This document shows, piece after piece, positions 6,484-64,000 of a DNA stretch of 64,000 nt (position 1 is its first letter; each line of letters begins with the position of its first letter). This stretch comes from Cafeteria roenbergensis (Eukaryota > Sar > Bigyra > Bicosoecida > Cafeteriaceae). The notes below the pieces were generated by a model. That model was not told where the DNA came from. It made no database searches and saw only the letters and a list, made by a program, of their open reading frames with translations. Position numbers and translations under genes: made by a program. The stretch is from contig VLTN01000048.1 of assembly GCA_008330645.1 (NCBI GenBank), positions 229,077 through 293,076 of the forward strand. The letters are read 5' to 3'.

Positions 6484-7837
6484 GGCTCCGCGTCGTGGCG
6501 CCGGGCCCCGCCCGCCTGCCCTGCATGGCGAGTCACCGCATGCAGAGCAGCGAAGTGGGACCACGTCACCGCTGACCAACCCGGCCCAGTCTCCGGCAGA
6601 GCTGGAGGACGAGTGGGGCAGGATCGCCGAGACCTTAGCGGGGACCGCGGTGCACCTGCCGCTGTTCAAGGGGGTGCTGGAGGCCAGGGCCCGGGCCATC
6701 GACGGCAGGGGACCCCTGGCGAGGCCCGAGCCGGGTCAGGCACGTGCGGCGCGGCCCGCCACGCTCCGGCCGGGATCCGGCGCCGCCGACGCCGCTGCCA
6801 GCGGCGACGAGGCCGATGCTCCTACGGATGGAGCCGTCGGGCGCGGCAATGCAGCCGCCAGCAGAGCCGCGACCAGCCGTCCTCTCGCTGTGGCGGCGGC
6901 TGCAGCGCCTCCGCGCAGCGACGGTGCCGATCCGGCCGCCGGAGACTCCGGCGGCTGCCACAGCGGCGCGGCGGCGCCGGGTAGTCGGGACGCGGGCGCG
7001 TCCCAACGTCAGTCGGGCGACGCCGTGCCTGCCGCAAATGGAGCTGGCAGGGCCACTGGCGGGGGAGGCGGCGGCACGATTGAGGCCGTGAGAGCATTTG
7101 ACAGCGAAGACGAGGACGAGGCCCGCGAGCTGGAGAAGGAGGCGGAAGAGGAGGAGGACGGCCAGCACAGCAACGAGGACGGCGGCGGTGGGGGAGTTGG
7201 GGCCTTGGAGGAGCATGCCGACGGCGACGACGCCGAGGCCACGCCAGGCTTCAGGAGTAGCCGTGGAGACCGCTCTGCCGGGGTCACTCGGCAGAGCACA
7301 GGCGACGTCGACGACGCAGCGTCCTCGCCTGATCGGGTCGATCGCTTGCGGCGGGCGGCCAGGCAGAGGGAGGCATGGGCAGCTCTGGGTGCAGCCACTG
7401 CGGGACCGCGCGGGCCGGCGAGCTCGGCGTCAGCAGCGCTGGCGCCCGCATCAGCAGCAACAGACACAGCAGCTGCGCTGCCTTGTGCGCGTTCGTCGCA
7501 CCTGTCGTGGACTGCCAGCAACGCCGGAGCAGAGGACAGCGACCACGATGACCCTCTCGCGTCCCGCTCTCCAGCGCGGCTGGCAGAGCCTCGCGTCGGC
7601 AGCCGTGCTCCGCCTGCAAGTGCTGCGCCGACGGCCTCGGGCAAGGACCGGACGCATGGACCTGGTCCGCGAGCTCCTGAGAGTGCTGCTGGAAGGAGCA
7701 GTGTGCTGGCAGATCGCCTGAGCAGGCTCAAGGGCATGTCACCGCAGGACGCCATCGCGAGGCTGAGAGCGAGGCGCCGGGCGCAAGCAGCGTCTGCAGC
7801 AGCGATGACCGGCTCAGGTGCTCTGCCCCAAAGGTGA
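5349..7837 (+). CDS. LisH-motif protein with long acidic low-complexity tail
   Basis: Proposed short first exon 5349-5384 (MPRKSGTDDIDE) joined in phase 0 to 5531-7837 (donor GTGCGC, acceptor CGCAG), about 780 aa. The junction is followed by LCIVLDWLRRHKHRKAHAAL, a good match to the LisH dimerisation motif (vLdyLrrhgyskal) found in LIS1-type, centrosomal and E3-ligase proteins. The rest is mostly disordered: a basic patch (GGRKRSRSE), a poly-Ser tract encoded by (TCG)n, a strongly acidic run near residue 565 (EDEDEARELEKEAEEEED) and a C-terminal helix (DRLSRLKGMSPQDAIARLRA). The acidic and basic patches suggest a nuclear or centrosomal scaffold, but function is unknown. The short first exon is inferred. 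Confidence 0.6.
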
Positions 7838-8622
7838 TGTGGGTGGAAGAAACGTGTTCGTGGTTGCAAGGCGGCGGGTTCACAAGCAGCATTTCCCGGC
7901 ACGATAACTTTTTGAGAGTGCAGCCAATTGACCGAGCGTTGACTTGTCAAGTGTGAAGGGCATATGCCCCGCCCAGCTGCCGCTCAGAGCCCGGCGAGAC
8001 GCTTGGCTTTTTTGCTTGCTGCGGCTGAGGGCGCAGCCATTCAGATTCATGCAGCTCTGTGCTTCGCCGTGGCTTCCGAGTTGGTGCTGAGCTGTCATTC
8101 CCCGGGCGCCCGAATACAGCCAAGTTCTGCAGCAGAGACCAAACGCCGGCCTTGGACCTCAAGCGGGCTCCTGAACGGTTCACTGAGGCGCCCAATCGCA
8201 CGGAGCTGGTTGCAGGCTCGGTTTCGCGCCTGCACTCAGCGGGCGCGTGCCACTGGCTGTTGACTGATCCCTGACACCCCACTGTGCTACTTTCCGACGG
8301 CAGAGCCTCGGGGTTTCGAAGAAACGAGGGGGAAACGACCCGCATTCCCTCGGGACGCACTCGCGCGCGACCCCAGAGTCACGCACGCATCCCTCGGCGT
8401 GCGTCAATCAGGCATCACCTTGCCAGCCACCCGTGAGCGCGCGGGTTGCGATTTCGTTGCTGCGCGGGGCGGGCTCCCCGGCCACCCGATCGCGCGTGGA
8501 TGTCTGTCCGGCTGCATCCCGCTTGTGCGCCTCCCGCCCCCCTCCCACCCACCCATCACCGCCCACCCCGCTCCCGTCTGGCAACCAATGCAGTCGCATC
8601 AAGGGCACCAGCCACCTGCGGA
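7838..8622. other. Intergenic region
   Basis: A 785-bp spacer between two plus-strand genes. A pyrimidine-rich, C-rich stretch (about 8520-8580) lies just before the next start and could be the 5' UTR or promoter. I see no convincing gene. Confidence 0.5.
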
Positions 8623-14081: not shown

Positions 14082-16748
14082 ATGGACTTCTCGGGTATCG
14101 ACGAGGCGCTGGATCACGCGCAGTCTGCGATGGGGTCACCCGGCCTGGCGCGGTCGCTGCGCCGGTCTCGGGCGCGGTTCGGGGACTCGGCGGCCGATCG
14201 CTACGCCCTTCCCGGGCAGCGAAAGGCCACGCCTCCCGAGCTTCCGCCTTCGGGGCACCGCTCGTCCCGCTTCGCGGGCGGGGACGGGGCCGACGGGGAG
14301 TGGGCGGACCGCGGACAGCTTGGCAACGGCGCAGCCGGGCAGTTTGGCAGGTCCAGCCGCCGCTTCGAGGGCGGCCACCGCGCCGGCTATGACAGCGACG
14401 GCCGCGCCGACCCTGTCTCGTCGGGCGCTGCGCCGTCGCCGCGCATGGCCAGCGTGGGCGGTTCCTGGGCCGCGGGCGGCTTCGGCGGCGCGGCGGCGGA
14501 GTCGCAAATGGCGGCTGCCGGCCGGGACATCGAGGCCCTTGAGCGGCGCGTGGCGCGGGCCGAAGCCCTGGCAGGGGAGGCCGCGTCGGCCGTGCGCTCC
14601 GCGGACCAGGAGGAGGAGTCGCTTCGAGCAACGGTCGCGTCGCTCGCCACCACCGCAGCGTCGCTCAGGCGCCAGCTGGACGGAGCCGTGGAGTCAGCTG
14701 ACGCCGCCGACTGGAGCCGCCGGCTGGCAGAGCTGGACGCTCGGCTGCGCGTCCCGCTGCAAGCCGCTAGGGCGCTTGAGGCGAGGGTGGAGGCGCTGGC
14801 AGCGGCGGCGGACTCGGCGCCGGACGCGCTGACCGTCCGGGGATGGGCTGATGACAGGGCCGCCGAGGTGGCGGCCGTGGCCAAGGAGGCGGCGATGCGG
14901 ACGGCGAAACGTTTGGCCGACGAGGAGGCGGGGCGGTGGCAGGTTTCGGCAGAGCAGGCCGTCGCGGCCACGGCAGAGGCGCGAGAGGTGGCGGAGGCGG
15001 CGCTCGCGCGCGCCCGCGGGGAGCTGGACGGGGCGGCGACTGGCGCCCGCGAGGCCACGGCCAAGGCGCGGCGGGAGGCGGCGGAGGCGGCCGAGGCCAT
15101 GGCGGCGGAGGCGTCCAAAGCGCGGGCGGCCACCGCGCGCGCCACAGCGTCGGCCGACGCCGCCGACCGCCTGTCAGAGTCGCTCACCGCCGCGCTGGGG
15201 GCTGTTGCCGGGCGGGAGGAGGAGGCGCGGGCGGCGCTGCGGGGCAAGGCGGAGCGTCTGGAGGCGGCCGCGGCGGAGGCGGAGGCGGTGGCGGGGCGCC
15301 TCTCCCGGCTCTGCGTGGCAGCGGAGGAGGCCAGGGCCCATGCGCAGCGCCGGGCCAGGGAGGCGGAGGAGCGGGCCGAGGCGGCGGACGCGGCGCGGGC
15401 GCGGGCGGCCGCTGACGCGCGTCAGATGGCGGAGCGGGTGTCGACGCGGGAGGCGGCGGCGGCGAAACGTGAGGCCGCTGTCGAGGAGCGCGAAGCCGCC
15501 GTGACGGAGCGCGAGGACTCGGCGGAACGATCCGCCGTCCAGTGGCGCGCCGAGCTCCTTGCGACGAGGGAGTCACTGGCGCGCGAAACCGCCGCGGCGC
15601 AGAGCGAGGCCACACGGGTGCGGGAGGAGAGCGCTCGGCGCGCGGAGGAGGCGGCGGAGCGGGAGGCGGCGGCGGCGGCCAAGGCGGAGGCGGCGCGGGC
15701 CCGCGACGAGGCGGCGGCCGAGGCGGCGCGGCGGGCGGCGGAGCGCGAGGAGGCGGCCGCGGCGGCGGAGCGGCGGCTCAGGGAGAGGACGTCGGCGGCG
15801 GAGGGGGAGGCGGCGGAGCGGGGCAGGGGCCTGCAGCGGCGGGAGGAGGAGCTAGCGGCCTGGGAGGCGCGGGCAGGGCGGCGCGAGGCGGAGGCGGCGC
15901 GGGTGGAGGGCGAGGCCGCCCGCGTGCGCGCCGAGCTGGGCGGCAGGGAGGCGGCGGTTTCGGCTCGCGAGGAGGCGGTGCGGCGGCGGGAGGAGGAGCT
16001 GATGGCGCGAGAGGCTGCGGCAGCCCGGGCCACGGAGGAGGCCAGAGTGCGGGAGGCGGCCGCGGCCGCTGCTGCCGCCGACGCCGAGGCGGAGGCGGAG
16101 GCGGCTGCCAGCCGCGCCGCCTCGGCGCGCGAGGAGGAGACCAGGGTTCGCGCGGCCGTGGCCGATGCCAAGGCTGCAGCTAGGCGCGCCCGCGATGAGC
16201 AGGCCGCCGCCGAGCGTGCCAGGGACGAGGCGGAGCGGGCCCGCGGGGAGGCGCTGGCAGGCGCCGGGGCGGCAGAGGCGCGGGCGCGGGTCGCTGAGGC
16301 GCGGGCTGAGAAGGCCGTTGCCGCCGCCGCAGCGCGGGCTTCAACGGAGTTGCTCACGCTGCGCCGGGCCCTGAAGGAGGTGCGCGAGCGACTCCATGGC
16401 GTGGTCACTCGCGGGGACAAACGCGCCGCCGACGAGGCGGCGCGAGAGGCCGAGGCGCGACGCCGCAGGCAGCTGCGCTGGGACGCTGTCAAGGCCGAGC
16501 GGTCGCGCACGCTGCTGCGGCTAGAGGAGGCTAGGGCCAACCTGGAGCGGCTCGACGCGGAGCCGCTCTGGGAGGAGGAGGAGGCCGCGGCCTCGGGCAG
16601 GGGCAGCGCGAGAGAGCCATCGAGCCCGGTGCGGGGCGCGCTGGCGGGGGGCAGGCGTGGCGCTGGCGGCGCCGGTGCTGGGTCGCCGCTCAGAGGCGCG
16701 GCGGCGCGTGGGTCTGCCCGCGGGTCGCCCGGTCGGGTGGTCGGGTGA
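14082..16748 (+). CDS. Ala/Glu/Arg-rich coiled-coil protein
   Basis: An 888-aa single exon; start MDFSGIDEALDHAQSAMGSP. Residues 1-145 are Gly/Ser/Arg-rich. Residues ~146-830 are an almost uninterrupted predicted coiled coil made of Ala, Glu and Arg heptads, including near-repeats such as REAAVEEREAAVTERE and EEAAAAAERRLRER. The last ~60 residues are basic with several SP sites (SSPVRG, GSPLRG, GSPGRV), possible proline-directed kinase targets. The composition suits a cytoskeletal, basal-body or flagellar-root protein, but no family is identifiable because Ala-rich coiled coils match each other non-specifically. The extreme GC-third-position bias is normal for this locus. Confidence 0.65.
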   Translation: MDFSGIDEALDHAQSAMGSPGLARSLRRSRARFGDSAADRYALPGQRKATPPELPPSGHRSSRFAGGDGADGEWADRGQLGNGAAGQFGRSSRRFEGGHRAGYDSDGRADPVSSGAAPSPRMASVGGSWAAGGFGGAAAESQMAAAGRDIEALERRVARAEALAGEAASAVRSADQEEESLRATVASLATTAASLRRQLDGAVESADAADWSRRLAELDARLRVPLQAARALEARVEALAAAADSAPDALTVRGWADDRAAEVAAVAKEAAMRTAKRLADEEAGRWQVSAEQAVAATAEAREVAEAALARARGELDGAATGAREATAKARREAAEAAEAMAAEASKARAATARATASADAADRLSESLTAALGAVAGREEEARAALRGKAERLEAAAAEAEAVAGRLSRLCVAAEEARAHAQRRAREAEERAEAADAARARAAADARQMAERVSTREAAAAKREAAVEEREAAVTEREDSAERSAVQWRAELLATRESLARETAAAQSEATRVREESARRAEEAAEREAAAAAKAEAARARDEAAAEAARRAAEREEAAAAAERRLRERTSAAEGEAAERGRGLQRREEELAAWEARAGRREAEAARVEGEAARVRAELGGREAAVSAREEAVRRREEELMAREAAAARATEEARVREAAAAAAAADAEAEAEAAASRAASAREEETRVRAAVADAKAAARRARDEQAAAERARDEAERARGEALAGAGAAEARARVAEARAEKAVAAAAARASTELLTLRRALKEVRERLHGVVTRGDKRAADEAAREAEARRRRQLRWDAVKAERSRTLLRLEEARANLERLDAEPLWEEEEAAASGRGSAREPSSPVRGALAGGRRGAGGAGAGSPLRGAAARGSARGSPGRVVG

Positions 16749-53990: not shown

Positions 53991-55094
53991 ATGCTCGAGG
54001 CCGCGCGGCGCGGCGATGCTGTGCGGATCGGCGCGCTAGTTGCCGAGGGGCAAGGCCTTGAGGACATTTGTGACGAGCTGGGACGGACGCCGCTCTTCAT
54101 GGCATCCGAGAACGGCCACGACGCGGTGGCGCGGCTGCTTGTGGAGGCTGGGGCGGATGTGAACAAGGCCAGGACGGACAACGGCGCGACGCCTCTGCTC
54201 ATCGCATGCCGGAACGGCCACGATGCGGTGGCGCGGCTGCTTGTGGAGGCTGGGGCGGATGTGAACAAGGCCAGGACGGACAACGGCGCGACGCCTCTGC
54301 TCATCGCATGCCAGGACGGCCACGATGCGGTGGCGCGGCTGCTTGTGGAGGCTGGGGCGGATGTGAACAAGGCCACGAAGGTCATTGGTGCGACGCCTCT
54401 CTTTGTTGCCTGCCAGGACGGCCGCGATGCGGTGGTGCGGCTGCTTGTGGAGGCTGGGGCGGATGTGAACAAGGCCACGACGGACGAAGGCATGACGCCT
54501 CTCTGCATCGCATCCCAGGACGGCGACGATGCGGTGGCGCGGCTGCTTGTGGAGGCTGGGGCGGATGTGAACAAGGCCACGACGGACATCGGTGCGACGC
54601 CTCTCTTCATTGCTTGCGCGAACGCTCACGCGTCAGTGGCGCGTCTGCTTGTGGAGGCTGGTGCGGATGTGGACAAGGCCAGGACGGACATCGGCGCGAC
54701 GCCGCTCGTAGCTGCATGCCGCTGGCCAGACACCCGACTCGTGCGCTGCCTACTTGCCGCCGGCGCCGACCCGTGCACCTCAGACAGGCACGGCAGGTCA
54801 CCTCTTGACGTGGCGGCGTTCCAGAGTTGCAGCGCCGCGACAGTTCGGCTGCTGCGGGAAGCTGGCGCGCCCGCGCCGTCGTTTGGCGTCTCCGCCTCGG
54901 CAAGCCTCGCGACGCTGCAGCGCTCTGGCCACACAGACGTCATCGAGGCGCTCATGACGCCAACAAAATGGGAGCGGCGGTCCCGGCTCCTGGCCTGGCG
55001 GACGAGCGCCCAAAGGTGCAGGCATGACGTTGCATGTGCTTCCGCCGCTGCGGCTCATGAGAGCGCGTCGTCCGGCGAATCCGCCATGGTTTGA
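53991..55094 (+). CDS. Ankyrin-repeat protein 2
   Basis: 367 aa; same N- and C-termini as ankyrin gene 1 but about eight repeats. Repeat variants include GATPLLIACQDGHDAVARLL and GATPLFIACANAHASVARLL. The C-terminal domain (ADPCTSDRHGRSPLDVAAF) differs from gene 1 by a few substitutions (V/T), so the units are recent duplicates that changed repeat number by slippage or unequal exchange. A phase-compatible upstream exon at 53534-53603 exists. Confidence 0.8.
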   Translation: MLEAARRGDAVRIGALVAEGQGLEDICDELGRTPLFMASENGHDAVARLLVEAGADVNKARTDNGATPLLIACRNGHDAVARLLVEAGADVNKARTDNGATPLLIACQDGHDAVARLLVEAGADVNKATKVIGATPLFVACQDGRDAVVRLLVEAGADVNKATTDEGMTPLCIASQDGDDAVARLLVEAGADVNKATTDIGATPLFIACANAHASVARLLVEAGADVDKARTDIGATPLVAACRWPDTRLVRCLLAAGADPCTSDRHGRSPLDVAAFQSCSAATVRLLREAGAPAPSFGVSASASLATLQRSGHTDVIEALMTPTKWERRSRLLAWRTSAQRCRHDVACASAAAAHESASSGESAMV

Positions 55095-56248
55095 CTGCTC
55101 GGGGACTGGAAAGGCACTGACTGGGCGAAACCATGATGTCGAGATCAAGGCGTGTGACTCGCTCTGTTTTCGCTTCAGGTCTGATTGGCACAAGGGCATC
55201 TCCACAGAGCTCTGCCACCTGATAGAGCATCGGCTCTGCGGGTCCTGGCAGAGCGCTGCTTCGCATTCCCCCGTGTCCTTGAAGCAGTCGATGGCACATC
55301 ACCGGTGCTGTTGTTGTGTGCTTGCGCGCTGCGTGGATGAATGAGCATCGTTGGGAGGGGCCGACAACTCGCGTCACCATAACACACACTGGATTCATAG
55401 ACTCATCAAAGCCAATCCAGCAGCTCCATCACCGAAGAATCACAAACCTGCGTGGAAGAGGCGAAGAGGCGGTGGGAATGATGTGAATGAACATCGTTGG
55501 TGATGATGTGACCGGTCTTGAAACTTTGCCTCGCTGTTTGGTGGTGCCAGAAACGCTGCTGTCCGGCAACGCCTCCGATTCGAGCTGATGCGTGTGATCG
55601 TAAGGGATGGTGATCACGCATCCAGCAGTGGCCAAATGGGCACCTGTTAGGTGTCCGGCGCCAGCGGGCTGGGAGTGGCAGTGCCTTGCTCGGAGACTGC
55701 ACCCACAGGGCACTGAGACCTCACAAGCCACCTCCCAGCCTGCCTCCGCGCCAACCCATTGTATCAGTCGTGCAAGTACTGCTGTGACGCCATGGTTCGT
55801 GCCGGAGACTATGTTGAGAACCGCATGCGACAGCAGAGCGCTGGACGGGGGTCGACAGCTGGTGAGTCGCGCAAATTTCACGGCTCTGCACAGCTGGCAT
55901 CACACAGGCGGAGCGTTCCACTGCTTCACAGCTCGGAACACGAAGGTCCAGCGCGAGCGCGCCCCCACCGCTCCTCGGCCCTTGGGAGCGACATCGCATG
56001 GCAGATCCAGCAGGTGAGGTTTGCAGCCGTGCCCAGGGAGCGTTGGCCAGGGAGGCGGCAAACTGCCTTGTCGTTTGGGCTTTGGGAGCAGTCACCGTCT
56101 GCGTTTGTCGGTGGGGCTCGCGCATGCCCGCGCTGTGTCCCGGGCCTGCCGCGGCTCGATGGCGTTGAGTTGCTCGTGGCAAGGATAGGGGTGGCAAGCA
56201 AGCTCGGCGGCCAGGCGTGGGTGTGCTTGCGCAGGACTCGGCCGCGAC
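55095..56248. other. Spacer between ankyrin genes 2 and 3
   Basis: A 1.15-kb copy of the previous spacer with scattered point differences (for example one fewer G near 55,709). Candidate first exon for gene 3 at 55792-55861. No other gene seen. Confidence 0.6.
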
Positions 56249-57733
56249 ATGCTCGAGGCAGCGCGGCGCGGCGATGCTGTGCGGATCGGCGCGCTAGTTG
56301 CCGAGGGGCAAGGCCTTGAGGACATTTGTGACGAGCTGGGACGGACGCCGCTCTTCATGGCATCCGAGAACGGCCACGACGCGGTGGCGCGGCTGCTTGT
56401 GGAGGCTGGGGCGGATATGAACAAGGCCAGGACGGACAACGGCGCGACGCCTCTGCTCATCGCATGCCGGAACGGCCACGACGCGGTGGCGCGGCTGCTT
56501 GTGGAGGCTGGGGCGGATGTGAACAAGGCCAGGACGGACGTCGGTGCGACTCCTCTGCTCATGACATGCCAGGACGGCTATGAGGCAGTGGCGCGGCTGC
56601 TTGTGGAGGCTGGGGCGGACGCGAACAAGGCCACGACGGACATCGGCGCGACGCCTCTGCTGATCGCATCCCAGAACGGCCACGACGCGGTGGCACGGCT
56701 GCTTGTGGAGGCTGGGGCGGATATGAACAAGGCCAGGACGGACACTGGCGCGACGCCTCTGTTCATCGCATGCCAGAACGGCCACGACGCGGTGGCGCGG
56801 CTGCTTGTGGAGGCTGGAGCGGATGTGAACAAGGCCAGGACAGACAACAGCGTGACGCCTTTGTCCATTGCATGCGAGAACGGCCACGACAGGGTGGCAC
56901 GGCTGCTTGTTGGGGCTGGGGCGGATATGACCAAGGCCAGGACCGGCATCGGCGCGACGCCTCTCTACATGGCATGTCAGAACGGCCACGATGCGGTGGC
57001 GCGGCTGCTTGTGGAGGCTGGGGCGGATGTGAACAAGGCCAGGACAGACAACGGCGCGACGCCTCTGCTCAGCGCATGCGAGAACGGCCACGATGCGGTG
57101 GCGCGGCTGCTTGTGGAGGCTGGGGCGGATGTGAACGAGGCCAGGACGGACACTGGCGCGACGCCTCTCTTCATGGCATCCCAAAACGGCCACGACGCGG
57201 CGGCGCGGCTGCTTGTGGAGGCTGGGGCGGATGTGAACAAGGCCACGACGGACATCGGCGTGACGCCTGTGCTGATCGCATGCGCGAACGGCCACGAGGC
57301 GGTGGCCCGGCTGCTTGTGGAGGCTGGGGCGGATGTCAACAAGGCCAGGACGGACAACGGCGCGACGCCTCTGCTCATCGCGTGCCAAAACGGCCACGAC
57401 GCGGCGGCGCGGCTGCTTGTGGAGGCTGGGGCGGACGTGAACAAGGTCAGGACGGACAACGGCGCGACGCCCCTTTATATAGCATGCGCGAACGGCCATG
57501 ACGCGGTGGCGCGTCTGCTTGTGGAGGCTAGGGCGGATGTGAACACGGCCACGACGGACGACGGTGCGACGCCTGTGTACATTGCATGCCAGAGCGGCCA
57601 CGACGCGGTTGTGCGGCTGCTTGTGGAGGCCGGGGCGGATGTGAACGAGGCCAGGACGGACAACGGCGCGACGCCTCTCTGTATCGCATCCGAGAACGGC
57701 CACTATGCGGTTGCGCGGCTGCTTGTGTTATAG
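56249..57733 (+). pseudogene. Ankyrin-repeat protein 3, truncated by the viral element
   Basis: 494 aa of open frame with about 14 ankyrin repeats, the longest of the three paralogues. In the last repeat the reading changes from the expected ARLLVEAGAD to ARLLVL-stop exactly where the AT-rich palindrome begins (57,726). The conserved C-terminal domain of genes 1 and 2 is missing. The protein is therefore a truncated product of insertion; whether its 3' half lies beyond the other end of the element cannot be seen. Repeats are very uniform (GATPLLIACQNGHDAVARLL), suggesting ongoing homogenisation. Confidence 0.75.
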
Positions 57734-57857
57734 TTTAATATATTTTCTGGGTATGATGATATTTCAGCGCGGCCAAAAATGTGTGTATAGTACTATACAC
57801 ACATTTTTGGCCGCGCTGAAATATCATCATACCCAGAAAATATATTAAACTATAACA
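57726..57857. repeat. Perfect 132-bp palindrome at the host/element junction
   Basis: Each base i pairs with base 115583-i without mismatch over 66-bp arms and no loop; the centre lies between 57,791 and 57,792 (TATAGT/ACTATA). The outer ends read TGTTATAG...CTATAACA. It could be a terminal hairpin or cruciform, a fold-back of the element's tip, or a head-to-head joint of two element ends. A read-level fold-back artefact is the main alternative. Confidence 0.95.
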
Positions 57858-57902
57858 GTAATTATTCGCTGAATATATTGAAAACAGTGAAATATATTTG
57901 CC

Positions 57903-58128
57903 AAAATATGTGTATAGTACTTATCGACGCCGATAAGTACCTATAAGTACCTGAAAATTCTCAGCAAGCATTACGGGATAAAAATTATCCAATGTTGCCA
58001 AAAAAGTCAGCGGGTAAACAAAATGTATGTATAGTACTTATCGACGTCGATAAGTACCTGGGAAATTCTCAGCAAGCATTGCCTGCTAAAAATTATCCAA
58101 TGTTGCCAAAAAAGTCAACGGGTAATTA
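57903..58128. repeat. Two ~115-bp terminal direct repeats with nested palindromes
   Basis: Copy 1 is about 57,903-58,017 and copy 2 about 58,018-58,128. Each has a TGTRTATAGTAC-type string (also at the centre of the 132-bp palindrome), then a 24-bp palindrome or near-palindrome (57,917-57,940 and 58,034-58,057; core TTATCGAC-GTCGATAA), then TTCTCAGCAAGCATT and AATTATCCAATGTTGCC. Candidates for integrase-binding or replication-origin iterons of the element end. Confidence 0.85.
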
Positions 58129-58362
58129 TCCCCCATGCTGTACAGCGATTTTTGCAATAATTGGTTGAAAGCCATGGGGTACCCCCCATGGGTTCAGTGC
58201 AATTTCGGGTATTATTACTCTGTGGGAGCATTTTGAGAATTAGTGGGTGGTGCCCGGCAATCCATTTTTCTCTATAGTAAAACTGGATTGCCGGGCAGGG
58301 GCTCTTATCATCTTGTACACCATTTCAGACTACGGTGTTGCCTTCATAGTCTCGTTTCATAT
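58129..58362. other. Non-coding stretch left of the first element gene
   Basis: AT-rich, with a short inverted repeat around a KpnI-like GGTACC (58,174-58,193, CCATGGGG/CCCCATGG) and a 14-bp-arm stem-loop. No gene. Confidence 0.6.
58251..58297. terminator. Stem-loop downstream of element gene A
   Basis: Arms TGCCCGGCAATCCA / TGGATTGCCGGGCA (14 bp) enclose a loop containing TTTTTCTCTATAGTAAAA. It lies ~65 bp past the stop of gene A on the minus strand. A matching loop occurs after gene B, so a 3'-end/termination signal is inferred. Confidence 0.45.
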
Positions 58363-58941
58363 CTATTCACCACACCACTTACGAGTATTATTATACACAC
58401 ATGTTGCACTGATCCATTCTGGAACATACATTCTGTAGCGACTGTCGTAATTCAAACCACAAAAGTAAATGTTGTCAACGTCGCGTGACTTCACACGAGC
58501 CTCATTGTCCACTTCAAGGAGGGCGTCCAGAACCTCACGATGTGAAAAGGTCTCCCCAGGCTCCTTTTTAAACGTCTTCTTATCAACGTCGTTAATGTCA
58601 AAAGGCTTTACACAAGCCTTCTCGCACAGTTCAAGGATGACGCATATCGCCCTATAATGGTAAATGGGCTTAATCCTTTTGCCCAAAGTTAGGATGTGGT
58701 ACGGGTACGCTACACTGTCCAGTTCTTCGTCAGTTGCTTCCCGGAATTCGGGGGTGTCTGTAACTCGGATTGTTCCAAAGGTCACGCCTCGAATTGGCGA
58801 ATCATCCTTTTCTCGTTTTACTCAAGTGTAAATTGTCTTTCCACACTCTGTGTCAACACGAGCCATGAATCTCCAATTTTCCAAGATTTTCCGTGGCATC
58901 TCGATACGCTCTCCATCTTTGGTTGAATCGACGAGTGACAT
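58363..58941 (-). pseudogene. Element gene A, paralogue of gene B with in-frame stop
   Basis: Start at 58941 (MSLVDSTKDGERIEMPRKIL) aligned to gene B's MPVVMRAKNGERIAVPMAIM. Codon 40 (58,824-58,822) is TGA, after which the frame resumes and keeps strong similarity (SPIRGVTF; DEELDSVAYPYHILTLG; GETFSHREVLDALLEV; RVKSRDVDNIYFCGL). Without the stop it would be 192 aa; compared with B it also has an extra ~20-residue segment (IKPIYHYRAICVILELCEKA). No family recognised. The duplication includes a shared upstream block (TTTTAATAT...AAGTACA before ATG). Confidence 0.65.
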
Positions 58942-59012
58942 TGTACTTTTCTACTATACTCATATATTAAAATACATAACGTTTTACAACGCGTCCAAGA
59001 TGTTAGTGGAGT

Positions 59013-59061
59013 TGTCTCGGTTAATCCTTTTTCTCTATAGTAAAATGTATAATCCGAGACA
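59013..59061. terminator. Stem-loop downstream of element gene B
   Basis: Arms TGTCTCGG / CCGAGACA with the same loop string TTTTTCTCTATAGTAAAA as the hairpin after gene A. Stems differ in sequence but pair, a compensatory pattern suggesting a selected structure. Confidence 0.45.
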
Positions 59062-59086
59062 GGGCTCTTATCATCTTGTCCACGTT

Positions 59087-59608
59087 TTAGACTACGCAGG
59101 TGTTGCCACCCATAGTCTCACCACGCGGCAACTCACAAATAGTACGATGCCAACTTGATGCTCCGCCCCATGACGGAGCATACACACCCTTGTGCCAGCG
59201 GCAAAACAGACCACCAAAGTAAATGTGTTCGACGTCGCGTGACTTCACACGATCCTCATTTTCCAGTTCAAGGAGGGCGTCCAGAACCTCACGATGTGAA
59301 AAGGTCTCTCCATACTTCTTTTTAAACGTCTTCGTAGTGATGTAGCCCAGAGTTAGAATGTGGTACGGAAACGCTTCACTGTCCAAGTCTTCGTCAGTTA
59401 CATCCCGGATAGTGTGATTTTCTACAATCCCCAGGTCTTTAAAGGTCACACCTCGAATTGGCGCACCATCCTTTGCTCGTTCGTCCTGAAAATATTCACT
59501 TACCTGCTCCGTATCTGTGTCAACAACAGCCTTGAATACCCAATCCCTCATAATTGCCATTGGCACGGCGATACGCTCTCCATTTTTGGCTCTCATAACA
59601 ACTGGCAT
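59087..59608 (-). CDS. Element gene B, hypothetical protein
   Basis: 173 aa from MPVVMRAKNGERIAVPMAIM; the frame is open farther upstream but similarity to gene A begins at this ATG, which is preceded in both by GTACA. Conserved blocks with A: PIRGVTF, TDEDLDSEAFPYHILTLG, KYGETFSHREVLDALLELEN, RVKSRDVEHIYFGGL. No known domain. Intact where A is broken, so probably the functional copy of a recent tandem duplication. Codon usage is AT-richer than the host. Confidence 0.65.
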   Translation of the reverse strand: MPVVMRAKNGERIAVPMAIMRDWVFKAVVDTDTEQVSEYFQDERAKDGAPIRGVTFKDLGIVENHTIRDVTDEDLDSEAFPYHILTLGYITTKTFKKKYGETFSHREVLDALLELENEDRVKSRDVEHIYFGGLFCRWHKGVYAPSWGGASSWHRTICELPRGETMGGNTCVV

Positions 59609-59858
59609 TGTACTTCTACTGTAGTCAGATATTAAAATACATAACGTTTTACAACTTGTCCAGGCATAAACAACCCCCAAGGGGTTCAGGGAAATCTGGG
59701 GTTCTTGTGTCCAAGATAATGGTAAGTGCTGCCAACTGTCTTTTACATCATCACTGTTCTCTATTCCGTAATATGATTCATAATGAAAAACTATGCACAC
59801 ATCCTGTTCATCAGTGCAGTGTGTCTACTTGTAAAATTGTATTGTGTCTGATATAAGT

Positions 59859-59988
59859 TCAATTTATCTTAGTGGTCAAGTGGTCAACTCAAACCCAGTT
59901 TCAAATCCGATCTGAAATTTGAAATACTGTACTTCTGAGACCTAGGTATCCATAATGAGTTGACCACTTGACCACTAAGATAAATTGA
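59859..59988 (+). repeat. MITE-like element, copy 1
   Basis: 130 bp with perfect 33-bp terminal inverted repeats (TCAATTTATCTTAGTGGTCA...). Internal sequence is the reverse complement of copy 2 with one mismatch. Outer TAA...TTA ends suggest a TA target duplication. No coding capacity. Confidence 0.9.
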
Positions 59989-60004
59989 TATTAGTTCCAT
60001 AGCC

Positions 60005-60008
60005 TCTA
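60005..60008 (+). promoter_or_regulatory. TCTA late-promoter-like motif before gene C
   Basis: CCTCTAAAAA, with 19 nt between TCTA and the ATG. A TCTA core in AT-rich context is the described late promoter of mavirus and its giant-virus host CroV. Four bases alone are weak evidence. Confidence 0.3.
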
Positions 60009-60027
60009 AAAAGGCACAATAACTAAT

Positions 60028-60402
60028 ATGGCTTCTCCTCTTCGCGAAGGCGTTCCCCCTGTTGAAAAGTTTCTTGCATGGGGCTTTACCAACTTCAATG
60101 CGCTAGTATCAACTTGCTTCCTAAACACGATGATGCGGGACTACGGAACTACAACACCTGAGAAGAAGTACTTGAAAAAGCATATGGCTGAGTACAACTT
60201 CTCTCAACATCAAGCCAATATTCTAGCAAGGGCTTACAGACTGATTAAAAAGCGGGAGTATGCTCGTATTGTGCAAGACATGGGCAGGGTAGCGCTTGTA
60301 AGAAATTTGAAGGATGTAAAATCCAAGCAGCCAGTATACTTTATGAACCATATCACAATGGAACTAAAATCAAAGAAGGATGTAACACACACAGTAATGT
60401 AG
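60028..60402 (+). CDS. Element gene C, small hypothetical protein
   Basis: 124 aa, MASPLREGVPPVEKFLAWGF to KKDVTHTVM, basic and predicted mostly helical (EKKYLKKHMAEYNFSQHQAN, RAYRLIKKREYARIVQDMGR). No family recognised. It is framed by two oppositely oriented 130-bp repeats (59,859-59,988 and 60,438-60,567), so this ~450-bp unit could invert by recombination. Confidence 0.6.
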   Translation: MASPLREGVPPVEKFLAWGFTNFNALVSTCFLNTMMRDYGTTTPEKKYLKKHMAEYNFSQHQANILARAYRLIKKREYARIVQDMGRVALVRNLKDVKSKQPVYFMNHITMELKSKKDVTHTVM

Positions 60403-60437
60403 TTATATTATGCACAGTATCATTTTCTACTCTAAGT

Positions 60438-60567
60438 TCAATTTATCTTAGTGGTCAAGTGGTCAACTCATTATGGATACCTAGGTCTCAGAAGTACAGG
60501 ATTTCAAATTTCAGATCGGATTTGAAACTGGGTTTGAGTTGACCACTTGACCACTAAGATAAATTGA
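60438..60567 (-). repeat. MITE-like element, copy 2 (inverted relative to copy 1)
   Basis: Same 130 bp and same 33-bp terminal arms, internal part reversed relative to copy 1. One internal mismatch (AGGAT versus AGTAT). Confidence 0.9.
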
Positions 60568-60666
60568 TATTAGGGAAAAGATACATTGTAGAGCAAACAA
60601 CGAAAAGGTGTTGTGTTTTTCCATCCTTCGTAGTATTATTTACAGGTAAAGAAGTCTGATATAAGT

Positions 60667-60734
60667 TCAATTTATCTTAGTGGTCAAGTGGTCAACTCAT
60701 TATGGATACCTAGGTCTCAGAAGTATAGGATTTC
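60667..60734 (-). repeat. MITE-like element, copy 3 (truncated)
   Basis: The first ~68 bp match copy 2 (AAGTATAGGATTTC at the break); the distal half and right terminal repeat are missing. It shares the flank CTGATATAAGT with copy 1. Confidence 0.85.
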
Positions 60735-60860
60735 CGAACAATGCACTTTCCAGGTCAGCTGGTGGCGCCGTGGTTTCTTCAATGAATGCAAGCGTATCCT
60801 CAAACTCTGAAACTACAGTGTACACTCGTTCACGTTTTTTCCCGGACACTATGATAGAAC

Positions 60861-61469
60861 ATGCCTGCCTACCGCAGTGAAATGGACCCTGATTATCTTC
60901 ATCTCTCTCATGAATTCCTTGTAACACTTACGGGCATGCCCAAGAAGACAAAGGAGAAGATGCTTTCTACACTGTATTTTTCGCATAAGGATTTGCTGTA
61001 TCTTATCAAGAACAACAGATGCCTTGAGGACATCAAGATGGTGCATAGTCTGTTTCCGAAGGTTTGGTACGCTACACAAGGTTTTGATGAGCACAAGCCT
61101 CTACTTGAGAGTCTTTGCGCGACTAGAGGTCGTCTTGATATTGCGGAACATCTTGACCTTGTTCCCTCTCTCCAGAGTGCTTTGAATGCTTGTATGGGAG
61201 GTCATCTACCATATGTGAAGTGGTGTATTTCAAAGGGTCTTAAGATCAACTTTAACATGAGGTTGTCACCCTTGTATTGTTTGTCACGGTCTAACGAGAA
61301 GATTTGCGAATGCATTGATTATGTTGTAGTTTCTGGTCAATATATTCCCTTTACAGTTTCTGACAGTACCCCTGGTTATATGATTGAGAAGATTGAGGAT
61401 CTCCATATTCCTGTTGACAACCAGGAGAAATTTGCTCAGCGCAAAGAAATGACAAAGGGAGGCGTTTAA
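60861..61469 (+). CDS. Element gene D, divergent ankyrin-like protein
   Basis: 202 aa, MPAYRSEMDPDYLHLSHEFL to MTKGGV. The middle has weak ankyrin/helical-repeat periodicity (LESLCATRGRLDIAEHLDLV, ALNACMGGHLPYVKWCISKG, LYCLSRSNEKICECIDYVVV), as in ankyrin proteins of large DNA viruses. It does not resemble the host ankyrin array, so it is not a captured copy of it. Function unknown. Confidence 0.6.
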   Translation: MPAYRSEMDPDYLHLSHEFLVTLTGMPKKTKEKMLSTLYFSHKDLLYLIKNNRCLEDIKMVHSLFPKVWYATQGFDEHKPLLESLCATRGRLDIAEHLDLVPSLQSALNACMGGHLPYVKWCISKGLKINFNMRLSPLYCLSRSNEKICECIDYVVVSGQYIPFTVSDSTPGYMIEKIEDLHIPVDNQEKFAQRKEMTKGGV

Positions 61470-61488
61470 TGTCATAAACGTTTTTTAC

Positions 61489-61492
61489 TCTA
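61489..61492 (+). promoter_or_regulatory. TCTA late-promoter-like motif before gene E
   Basis: TTTTTTACTCTATTATAACAG precursor region with TCTA 9 nt before the ATG, in AT-rich context as in mavirus/CroV late promoters. Confidence 0.35.
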
Positions 61493-61501
61493 TTATAACA
61501 G

Positions 61502-61811
61502 ATGCCAGGACAGAGAACAATTACGAAGGACTATAACCGTCGTATTCGTGAACATGGTGAAACCCTGGACATTGAGATTAGTGACCCAGTGCTTTACCGA
61601 GACTTGATGACCATTCAAGGACTTGCGTGACGCATTTGTAAAAGAGCATGGGATTACGGACAAGCATTTTCACAAGAACGCTGACGGAAACCCTGCTTTC
61701 ATTGACCGCGAACTGGCGACACTGTGGCGCACGTATCACCTTGAGAACGCGAAACTCCAGACACTCTGCAAGACATGTTACAAAGCGGAGACTTTTGGGT
61801 GGTCTGTGTGA
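61502..61811 (+). pseudogene. Element gene E, small protein with one frameshift
   Basis: The first frame runs from 61502 (MPGQRTITKDYNRRIREHGE) to a TGA at 61630. The second frame, entered near 61,620, continues LRDAFVKEHGITDKHFHKNA to 61811. One base change in CAAGGACTTGCG would join them into ~103 aa. The C-terminal HLENAKLQTLCKTCYKAETF resembles the end of HNH nucleases (H-x8-LCxxCHxxK), but the first His/Cys pair of an HNH fold is not visible, so this is only a hint. Convergent with, and 1 bp from, the integrase gene. Confidence 0.45.
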
Positions 61812-61812
61812 A

Positions 61813-62973
61813 TCATCGCTTCTCAGCATCTTTCAGCATCTTGGGGACGTCGCGTTTCAGATTCTCGACGGGTTCCCATGTTGTTTCTCCAGTCGTCCAT
61901 TTGACCATCCATCCTGGTTCTCCATCCCTTGATTGTTTCTTTAACAATCGGGAGATGTCCCACCGTGGCGCAGAGTCGCGGGTATTCTCCACACGTTCAA
62001 CGAGTTGGAGGTCTTCTTCGTACTTGTTTCCAACCCAGTCAGGACGAGGTTGTCCACGCTTTGCTACATATGGCGCACCACTGAGTCTGTAGACCGTTGA
62101 CCCGAATGGCGTCGATGGCCTGAGAATCTTTTCAACACGATGAAGCGTCTTCGACCACTTCTCGCCGTCATTTGCAACTGCAGATTTGACGACCCGCACA
62201 GTTTCTCCGACGCGGAAAGTGGGAGGTGTGGCCAATGCTGTCGCGCGCTTCTTCGTCCTTGCAACAACTCCCTCACGCTTTCCATCTTCGAGTGCATGGG
62301 CTTCGTTGGGTGTCATGTCGATGGTAATCTGGTAGGAGTTGTTGTAGACGTCGACGAGTTCCTGGAGATAGGATGGCCAATCGCGCGTACCCTTTGCGCG
62401 CATGCTCTTCCGAATCATTTCCTTCAGAATACCGTTAAAGCGCTCTACTTGTCCGTTTGACTGTGGCTTCCCAGGTAACGAGAGAATTTGTTTCACGTTG
62501 TGCCGTTTTAGCACAGCCTTGAACTTTTGGTTAATGAACTCCGTTCCCTTGTCACTGCGCACTGACCGAATGCCGTGAGCCTCAGACAAAAGGTTGTCCA
62601 TTGCTTCCGCGACAGTGTCTGCTTTCTTGTTGAGCAGTGCGCGAGCATATCCTTTCTTCGAGAACAGGTCGATGCCCGTGAGGATGTACTGAATACCGTC
62701 CCAGCCAATAAGGCGGACATCTGCGAGGTCGATTCCCATGACTCGTTGAGGCGCTCGAACAATTGTACTCCGCACAACGCGAGGCCTCTTTGGTCGTAGA
62801 TACATTTGATACGTTTCCTGTTTCCGGAGCCACTCTGTTACTTGGCGCTGTGAGACGCCGAGACCCTCTTCGTTGGCCTTGCGCCATACCTTGTCTCTGC
62901 CAAATGTGAACCCGCGTGTATACCAGAGGTCATACAGTCCGTCTTCTTGTGTTTTAGTCAGCGGTGGTACCAT
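61813..62973 (-). CDS. Retroviral-type (rve) integrase with C-terminal chromodomain
   Basis: 386 aa, intact. The N-terminal ~60 residues form a DNA-binding-type helical region (QEDGLYDLWYTRGFTFGRDK; VSQRQVTEWLRKQE). The core has the DDE triad: Asp82 (VMGIDLAD), Asp141 (VRSDKGTEF) and Glu177 (NGQVERFNG), with exactly 35 residues between the second and third, the D,D(35)E hallmark. A chromodomain-like module at ~338-376 (WMVKWTTGETTWEPVENL) may steer insertion to particular chromatin. Such integrases occur in Polintons, mavirus/EMALEs and Ty3-type retrotransposons; no reverse transcriptase is adjacent, which favours the former. Confidence 0.9.
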   Translation of the reverse strand: MVPPLTKTQEDGLYDLWYTRGFTFGRDKVWRKANEEGLGVSQRQVTEWLRKQETYQMYLRPKRPRVVRSTIVRAPQRVMGIDLADVRLIGWDGIQYILTGIDLFSKKGYARALLNKKADTVAEAMDNLLSEAHGIRSVRSDKGTEFINQKFKAVLKRHNVKQILSLPGKPQSNGQVERFNGILKEMIRKSMRAKGTRDWPSYLQELVDVYNNSYQITIDMTPNEAHALEDGKREGVVARTKKRATALATPPTFRVGETVRVVKSAVANDGEKWSKTLHRVEKILRPSTPFGSTVYRLSGAPYVAKRGQPRPDWVGNKYEEDLQLVERVENTRDSAPRWDISRLLKKQSRDGEPGWMVKWTTGETTWEPVENLKRDVPKMLKDAEKR

Positions 62974-63100
62974 TGTGTTCTATAAAGGGGCTCCGCCAAA
63001 GGGGCTTTGCCCCTTTAGAACCCCGGCAATGGAATCCCGAATATGCGTTTACACATCCTTAATATTAAGGACTTGTAACATCTTTGCGACGCAGTCACAA
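62974..63100. other. Intergenic stretch with GC hairpin upstream of the integrase
   Basis: Just upstream of the integrase start (minus strand), GGGGCTCCGCC/AAAGGGGCTTTGCCCCTTT (62,985-63,016) forms a stem-loop. It may end the capsid transcript or regulate the integrase. TTTATAGAACACA precedes the integrase ATG. Confidence 0.4.
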
Positions 63101-64000
63101 TTAGTCCAAATACGCTTTTGGTGTCACTGAAGCGCCTAGACGAATCATGGCCATCAACTGCTTCTTGGTCAACTTCCCGAGACCCTTCTTCGATGGCTTC
63201 CCACCAGCAGTCCGCAGAACATCACCCACCGGATACGTCTCCGTAGCCCATGCTCTTAGCAAATCCACCTGGCAGACTTGAAATCACCAACGTAGGCTGA
63301 AGCGACAGGATGGTTGCGCGCCTGTCGGATTGCCTTCCTCACGCGTGGAGTCTTGAGCCAGGATGTGAAGGATGTCCATGCGTTTTGGATGGGTCGAGGA
63401 ATAGACCAACCTCCCATAATGGCGTTCATCTGAGAGGAATCGTCCGTAAAGACGAACTCTGAATCCAGGAGAGTTCCTGGAGAATAGCGAGGGCGCCACT
63501 CTGTGAATACATCACCCTCCTCGTACACAAAGACGTCATAGAGGAGGAAGACCCGGAGATAGCAGACCTCATCCGTGGATGCACCCTTGACAGTGACACG
63601 GACAATTCCATCAATCGTCTCACCAGACCCGTTCATGATCTCGTCTGTGAGTCCGAGGTCAGAGGGGCGTACGTAGAAGATGGAACCGGCGCCGCGCTGC
63701 GTACTGCCAATTCCGAGGGAATGCCTGCAAACGTTGCCTCGCGCTTGGAGTACCCGTTTCCGGTGGAAATCTTGTATAGTTCCGTGGGGGTTACGCGGGC
63801 ACCGAGAAGGTCAGTTTTTGTTCCCGATGTCAATGGACACGCTCTGAATCGGACAGAACCGATTAGGGAATGCCCACTCAGTACCAGGGATGTCAACACC
63901 AGCGTCCGTCTTGAGGAGGCGGGGACGCTCAACGTAGATAGCAAGCATGTTCGGTACACCGGTCATCGTGAACGTCTTCGATTCCAGAGGAGGGCTGATT
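63101..64000 (-). pseudogene. Major capsid protein-like gene, frameshifted and 5' truncated by the window edge
   Basis: Minus-strand coding spread over several frames: 63,999-63,811 (LAIYVERPRLLKTDAGVDIP; FPNRFCPIQSVSIDIGNK), then ~63,810-63,715 (LYKISTGNGYSKREATFAG), then ~63,715-63,275 (GAGSIFYVRPSDLGLTDEI; LRVFLLYDVFVYEEG), then to a TAA at 63,103-63,101 (LGKLTKKQLMAMIRLGAS). The order of these motifs is that of double-jelly-roll major capsid proteins of Polintons and mavirus-like virophages. At least three single-base shifts separate the parts. Either the gene is dead or the assembly has indel errors; the neighbouring integrase of similar length is intact. The N-terminal half lies outside the window. 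Confidence 0.55.

Follow-up and report, generated by a model that had tools for sequence, protein, structure and literature searches.

Perfect terminal palindromes of a mid-GC EMALE provirus in Cafeteria roenbergensis as candidate fold-back telomeres

The left part of a provirus was found at the end of a 64,000-bp stretch of the Cafeteria roenbergensis genome (the window; C48:229077-293076, with Cn labels denoting contigs of one 36.3-Mb genome of 167 contigs). Judged by its sequence, the provirus is a mid-GC member of the endogenous mavirus-like elements (EMALEs), that is, a mavirus-type virophage, and its most unusual feature is a perfect palindrome at its terminus. Such palindromes are perfect, vary in a mirrored manner, are absent from the examined tips of elements with a protein-primed DNA polymerase (pPolB) and are accompanied by an association of replication and telomere genes. 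From these observations it is probable that mid-GC EMALEs keep their linear DNA ends as fold-back telomeres, which would replace protein-primed replication. The element is of a known kind, and its end palindromes are without an earlier report in the literature covered: neither PMC8547959 nor PMC10945749 has the string "palindrom" or "hairpin" in its main text, and no such report was found among the matches listed for virophages, EMALEs, mavirus and Polintons, as judged by title and start of abstract (supplements and subscription papers lying outside this scope).

The palindrome of the window (57726..57857) is a perfect inverted repeat of 132 bp with two 66-bp arms and no spacer (TGTTATAG...CTATAACA). 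The same variant occurs at the other end of the provirus, located on contig C86 (tip of the terminal inverted repeat (TIR) at 7589-7992, minus strand), and at no other of the 31 mid-GC tips compared. These consist of 26 of the 29 TIR places from a genome search together with C5 left, C5 right, C149, C137 and C35; the three places left out were C34 (tip missing), C144 (interior only) and C135 (solo half arm), C151 (tip missing) also lying outside the set, and the left tip of C29 (C29_L) was included although its flank is possibly an assembly artefact. Perfect self-complementarity was observed in 26 of the 31 tips, with nine distinct sequences of 90–138 bp, and in each perfect palindrome the inner edge presents the same TG...CA end as the outer one. 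The host part of the window contained no inverted repeat of at least 30 bp within 100 bp.

The symmetry of the palindromes has been kept through changes in their sequence. The left and right palindromes of the C5 element differ by eight mismatches and one gap per 46–47-bp arm, yet each is perfect, and the C23a element also carries different perfect palindromes at its left and right ends. If the arms of C5 had drifted as its ends did, about eight mismatches per end would be expected, and zero at both ends has a probability of ~1e-7 (a rough Poisson estimate), which means that symmetry is restored at each end separately. A palindrome folding on itself would naturally do this. An extra half-palindrome arm lies beside the tip on C110 (20744-20810) and a solo arm lies in host-like DNA on C135 (14407-14476), both being possible by-products of end folding.

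A comparison was made with pPolB-type elements of the same genome. Two low-GC TIR tips used as queries located 20 distinct tips, plus a partial match on C42; for 15 of the 20 the contig also has a pPolB match, and those on C122, C53, C74, C62 and C50 were classed by TIR similarity only. No both-strand self-match was found in the 20 located tips, a test which short palindromes would escape, whereas the same kind of search gave both-strand matches at most mid-GC tips. Reading by letter revealed no palindrome with a score of at least 14 in three of these 20 tips, nor one of at least 12 in two tips, both from one nested element, that belong to a second pPolB type. The resulting 22 pPolB-type tips come from few TIR families and therefore do not represent 22 independent cases.

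The first-pass annotation had expected a protein-primed polymerase in the provirus; when genome-wide pPolB matches were mapped, none lay within any element of this class, including a full copy on C1 (229814-248770), many of the mid-GC copies being cut by contig ends. We take the 632-aa candidate to be a pPolB from polymerase motifs recognized by eye. This assignment also draws on the main text of PMC8547959 and received no confirmation from Pfam (no match below E 0.15) or PDB (no match below E 0.6), and a profile search of the genome with PF03175 gave no match, its controls being silent too. Both pPolB and mid-GC elements are present on C4, C8, C94 and C115, at different places, and nested in C4. 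Contig C4, considered as a counterexample with palindrome and pPolB on one contig, was rejected as such, since the pPolB element is inserted into a mid-GC TIR. This insertion, with the duplication TATGTA, is split over two contigs (C4:949293-950116 and C144:10876-12176) whose TIR pieces are 99.6% identical over 479 bp, and is a virophage inside a virophage.

Inside the palindrome of the window, AAGTACC repeats are present on the plus strand at 57935, 57945 and 58052 (region 57935..58058), overlapped by two 24-bp palindromes (57917-57940 and 58034-58057). In three TIR types AAGTACC/ATGTACC repeats are clustered inside the palindrome with a spacing of 10–11 bp, with single repeats further inward. 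Their density in mid-GC TIRs is 3–5 per 500 bp against 0.14–0.25 expected, and C5 left has three in 107 bp against 0.08 expected, numbers to be read with the motif having been chosen after viewing the sequences and the TIR types being partly homologous. Three pPolB-type TIRs contain 0, 0 and 1 copies of these repeats. When the seven mid-GC sequences were shuffled 500 times, three of them reached a count of three repeats in one or more shuffles. According to a passage of PMC10945749, new primase/helicase versions in EMALE04 always accompany a changed TIR, an observation consistent with recognition of an origin within the TIR.

The mid-GC primase/helicase, as represented by the C1 copy, possesses PriCT_2 and Herpes_ori_bp domains and resembles CyRepA1 (152 bits, below the cut-off of 200). 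It matched 29 of 50,697 phage records, and a protelomerase from one of these 29 matched 44 phage records, some weakly and partially. The two lists have 20 records in common, where chance would give 0.025; the computed probability of this overlap overstates the association, because many records are near-duplicates and the query was taken from this very group. In all three phage records opened, a telomere resolvase gene (PF16684) lies no more than 2 kb from the replication gene. Scans of IMG/VR with the primase, integrase and recombinase gave no relatives, although records very close to this genome may be excluded there.

Under the proposed mechanism, the 90–138-bp terminal palindrome would fold on itself, and the fold would either act as a primer from which the end is copied, in the manner of parvovirus rolling-hairpin replication, or be closed into a hairpin. 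The PriCT-2/origin-binding helicase of the virophage would bind the repeats just inside the palindrome and start replication, so that fold-back ends and helicase together would stand in for the protein-primed DNA polymerase of pPolB-type EMALEs. That the palindrome folds, that the fold primes copying or is closed, and that the helicase binds the repeats are steps which we infer. Terminal resolution by nicking and copying leaves full palindromes at linear genome ends, as in adeno-associated virus (AAV). The virophage palindromes are full, with both edges TG...CA, whereas pure hairpin resolution would give half palindromes on free DNA; fold-back priming is therefore favored, with closed hairpins as the alternative.

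Several observations weigh against fold-back telomeres. All tips come from a single genome, a single sequence accounts for 15 of the 26 perfect palindromes, and five of the 31 tips are imperfect: C29_L (four gap positions), C58_R (three mismatches), C110 (four mismatches), C76 (six mismatches, two gaps) and C108 (14 mismatches, four gaps), the last being an apparent chimera of two palindrome variants. An IMG/VR scan with the tip pair gave 100 stretches, none of them palindromic (best self-complementarity 0.58), which were read as chance matches. Helicase identity is no more than ~25%, over one domain, and nine of the 29 matching phage records have no protelomerase match (one Leptolyngbya phage, one Enterobacter phage, one Acinetobacter phage and six 191–196-kb Vibrio phages). 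CyRepA1-like proteins are also found on bacterial plasmids not known as hairpin-ended; the primase/helicase matched 11 plasmid records, and of the eight shown seven are annotated CyRepA1. No match to PF16684, the ResT/TelK-type resolvase, was obtained at E ≤ 10 in ten homologs of the tyrosine recombinase of mid-GC elements. The visible window and C86 parts of the provirus contain only a 40-residue primase/helicase fragment (60721-60843).

This tyrosine recombinase may resolve the ends, a suggestion which we regard as tentative. A PF00589 match was obtained in two of the ten homologs (best E 6.6e-5), and a search against PDB sequences gave no meaningful match. An alignment of the ten proteins shows four invariant residues (R, R, H and Y), with Q at the usual first H of the HxxR motif, and we take the invariant residues to be the catalytic ones. 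It is likewise doubtful, though conceivable, that the whole mid-GC branch swapped protein-primed replication for hairpin telomeres, with the palindrome, the PriCT-2/origin-binding helicase and the recombinase, as a new eukaryotic-virus telomere resolvase, forming an exchangeable module.

The palindrome could instead be the site of this recombinase, serving circularization, dimer resolution or entry into a giant-virus genome, with replication in circular form. Sputnik-type virophages are circular, the recombinase matches lie with mid-GC elements, and the four invariant residues also speak for such a role. Circularization has been suggested for Polinton-like viruses with such recombinases in a passage of PMC12220804. 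However, a recombination site needs no perfect palindrome of 90–138 bp, the maintenance of symmetry through sequence change would be left unexplained, and the integrated copies bear integrase-type 5-bp duplications, so that we consider this unlikely. A role in integration or expression and not in replication is decidedly unlikely. Both edges of each perfect palindrome do present the same end, so that either arm could offer TG...CA to the integrase, but C5 has two perfect palindromes and no match to the rve integrase (in a search scoring best candidates only), and elements of the pPolB type manage integration without them.

An ordinary Polinton/Maverick with protein-primed replication, with which the rve integrase, TIR and capsid gene would agree, is very improbable given the absence of a pPolB match from the mid-GC elements found, and a duplication of 5 bp instead of the 6 bp of Polintons. 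Least probable of all is that the palindromes are assembly artefacts of long-read fold-back, in spite of the indels and mis-assemblies in EMALEs mentioned in the main text of PMC8547959 and the mirrored host flanks of C29, since there are many independent host junctions, 5-bp duplications at the complete copies (C1 AGAGC, C23 AGCTC, C58 AGACC, C5 GGCCC) as well as at window/C86, and since the pPolB-type tips examined, which belong to this assembly too, have no palindromes.

Fold-back telomeres would give a concrete and testable answer to a question left unanswered in the literature covered, namely how linear virophages without a protein-primed polymerase copy their ends. The palindromes also tie end replication to a family of replication proteins which is present in hairpin-telomere phages. 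If the proposal is true, end-replication systems would be exchangeable modules among Polinton-like viruses.

The boundary of the provirus (57725|57726) coincides with a break in a host ankyrin-repeat open reading frame (ORF) (56189..57725, plus strand; Pfam Ank_2 1.5e-101). The G+C content falls from 59.5–68% (1-kb intervals, 54001-57000) to ~46% (mean of six 1-kb intervals, 58001-64000), the first-pass annotation having described a sharp compositional switch here. In the 57.7 kb of host DNA to the left it is 59.5–77% per 1-kb interval with one exception of 82%, this being a peak of 81.9% at 15001-16000 with strong GC and AT skew. A copy of the target-site duplication (TSD), GCTTG, is present at 57721..57725, and the right copy starts the host flank beyond the element on C86; when the two host parts were rejoined with one GCTTG removed, the ankyrin frame was free of stops over the 677 codons examined. 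The TIR extends over 3,009 bp (57726..60734) and matches C86:7992-4981, inverted, in two pieces of 99.7% and 99.2% identity. The second inverted copy of 57,726-58,128 that had been anticipated is thus present, this 403-bp repeat being part of the longer TIR, as is the anticipated duplication of 5–6 bp. With the resumed host frame and a capsid gene, these features bear out a mavirus-type provirus within an ankyrin gene, and a mis-joined contig, which had been named as a condition that would refute it, does not apply. The element was most likely inserted by its rve integrase. The C29 element has no 5-bp duplication, since the host flanks on its two sides (around 7076 and 32899) are inverted copies of each other, probably an assembly fold-back fault.

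Within the TIR are two tandem paralogous ORFs on the minus strand (58363-59824). ORF A (58363..58821; 152 aa stop to stop) has tblastn relatives in TIR stretches of 12 contigs (that of the window counted), variable between copies, and gave no Pfam match at E ≤ 1, no PADLOC match at E ≤ 0.1 and one PHROG at E 0.15. ORF B (59087..59824; 245 aa stop to stop) shares 46% aa identity with it. A nested fold-back element of 719 bp (59854..60572), with 141-bp inverted arms that are 96% complementary, has other copies by tblastn and a single ORF (ATG at 60028, to 60402, plus strand); being nested in the TIR it is present at both provirus ends, and a partial third copy lies at 60655-60734.

Inward of the TIR, the primase/helicase fragment (60721..60843, minus strand) represents the C-terminus of the gene, with 85% aa identity to residues 1028-1067, and it seems that the provirus lacks this gene and may depend on other copies for replication. 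It is followed by a small ORF of 203 aa with faint ankyrin similarity (60858..61469, plus strand; Ank_4 E 0.018, below the cut-off) and a remnant of a 202-aa DUF3223, HNH-like gene (61501..61811, plus strand) in which an internal stretch of the C1 copy is missing; the C1 homolog matched PF11523 DUF3223 at E 1.3e-4 (over the cut-off) and HNH_5 only at E 0.037. An intact rve-family integrase (61813..62979, minus strand) matched PF00665 (E 3.9e-12) and PF13683 (4.1e-7), as well as PHROG transposases (to 4.2e-18) and PDB integrases (to 9.1e-11), and is 99–100% identical over its full length at ten loci including the window. The chromodomain with which it had been annotated is seen by eye as a chromodomain-like C-terminus, together with D,D(35)E spacing, and has no Pfam match at E ≤ 1.

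The annotated capsid-like gene proved to encode the C-terminal portion of a major capsid protein (MCP) of virophage type (63101..64000, minus strand), frame-broken and cut by the contig end, base 64000 being the last of C48. Over a 144-residue stretch of 63256-63810, identity to the 607-aa C1 MCP (its residues 417-560) is 98%, and this C1 protein matched PF22031 at 2.1e-8. The window MCP is spread over at least three ORFs (by eye, the alignment covering the middle piece only), and sequencing error and decay are not distinguishable here as the source of this broken frame and of the internal loss in the DUF3223/HNH-like gene. A protein search with the MCP gave five matches, one of them (33% identity) from a named source collection. 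An Rfam scan of 55000-64000 gave no match at gathering scores.

In order, the full C1 copy has the DUF3223/HNH-like gene, integrase, MCP and ORFs in the penton, protease, ATPase and MV14 positions, and then a gene for a Peptidase_S74 protein, those for the tyrosine recombinase and the primase/helicase, and the small ankyrin-like gene, with other ORFs besides. Morphogenesis genes had been predicted to the right of the window; in C1 the MCP is present and the putative penton, protease and ATPase ORFs follow the published order, but the ATPase ORF has only weak P-loop matches (best Pox_A32, 8.6e-4, below the cut-off) and the penton and protease ORFs no Pfam match at E ≤ 0.1. The C86 part of the provirus carries the S74 gene and the tyrosine recombinase ORF (C86:1992-3053), and by comparison with C1 ~7 kb, from MCP to S74, is missing between C48 and C86, the stretch in which its own penton, protease and ATPase genes would be expected.

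The first-pass annotation regarded the provirus as a new element type; it belongs instead to a published EMALE family (PMC8547959), mid-GC class, and its integrase recurs with near-identity at ten loci. A virophage MCP, an rve integrase, TIRs and a short TSD place it with the mavirus-type elements. It resembles the mid-GC EMALEs, types 5–8 (Hackl et al., 2021; PMC8547959), in having the integrase near one end, a tyrosine recombinase, TIRs and short TSDs and, with ~7 kb of its sequence unseen, no pPolB, the absence of which from mid-GC EMALEs is stated in the main text of that paper, and the long primase/helicase of the group is present in C1. It differs from their 33 complete elements in its TIR of 3.0 kb (0.2–2.3 kb in theirs), in the 46% G+C of its visible left part (47–53%) and in having only a primase/helicase fragment in the parts seen. 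PF00268, considered as an EMALE07 marker, gave no match and carries no weight either way. With mavirus and the low-GC EMALEs the provirus shares capsid and integrase homologs, TIRs and presumably an ATPase homolog and life style, but those elements have a pPolB (main text of PMC8547959) and their tips examined here are without a terminal palindrome.

The Vibrio phages Valp1, HY01 and ST2-1pr have a PriCT-2/origin-binding replication protein in common with the mid-GC EMALEs. Their telomeres are reportedly palindromic; a perfect terminal palindrome, as in hairpin-telomere replicons, is present in the provirus, whereas the ResT/TelK-type resolvase (PF16684) of these phages was not found. In parvoviruses such as the helper-dependent AAV, the linear genome likewise has a palindrome at its extreme end; their genes are unrelated, and the cross arms of the AAV inverted terminal repeats were not noted in the virophage tips. 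A further likeness, by description only, is with Dishui Lake virophage DSLV3, whose two ends, according to a passage in a review (PMC10301787), have palindromic repeats that are placed asymmetrically.

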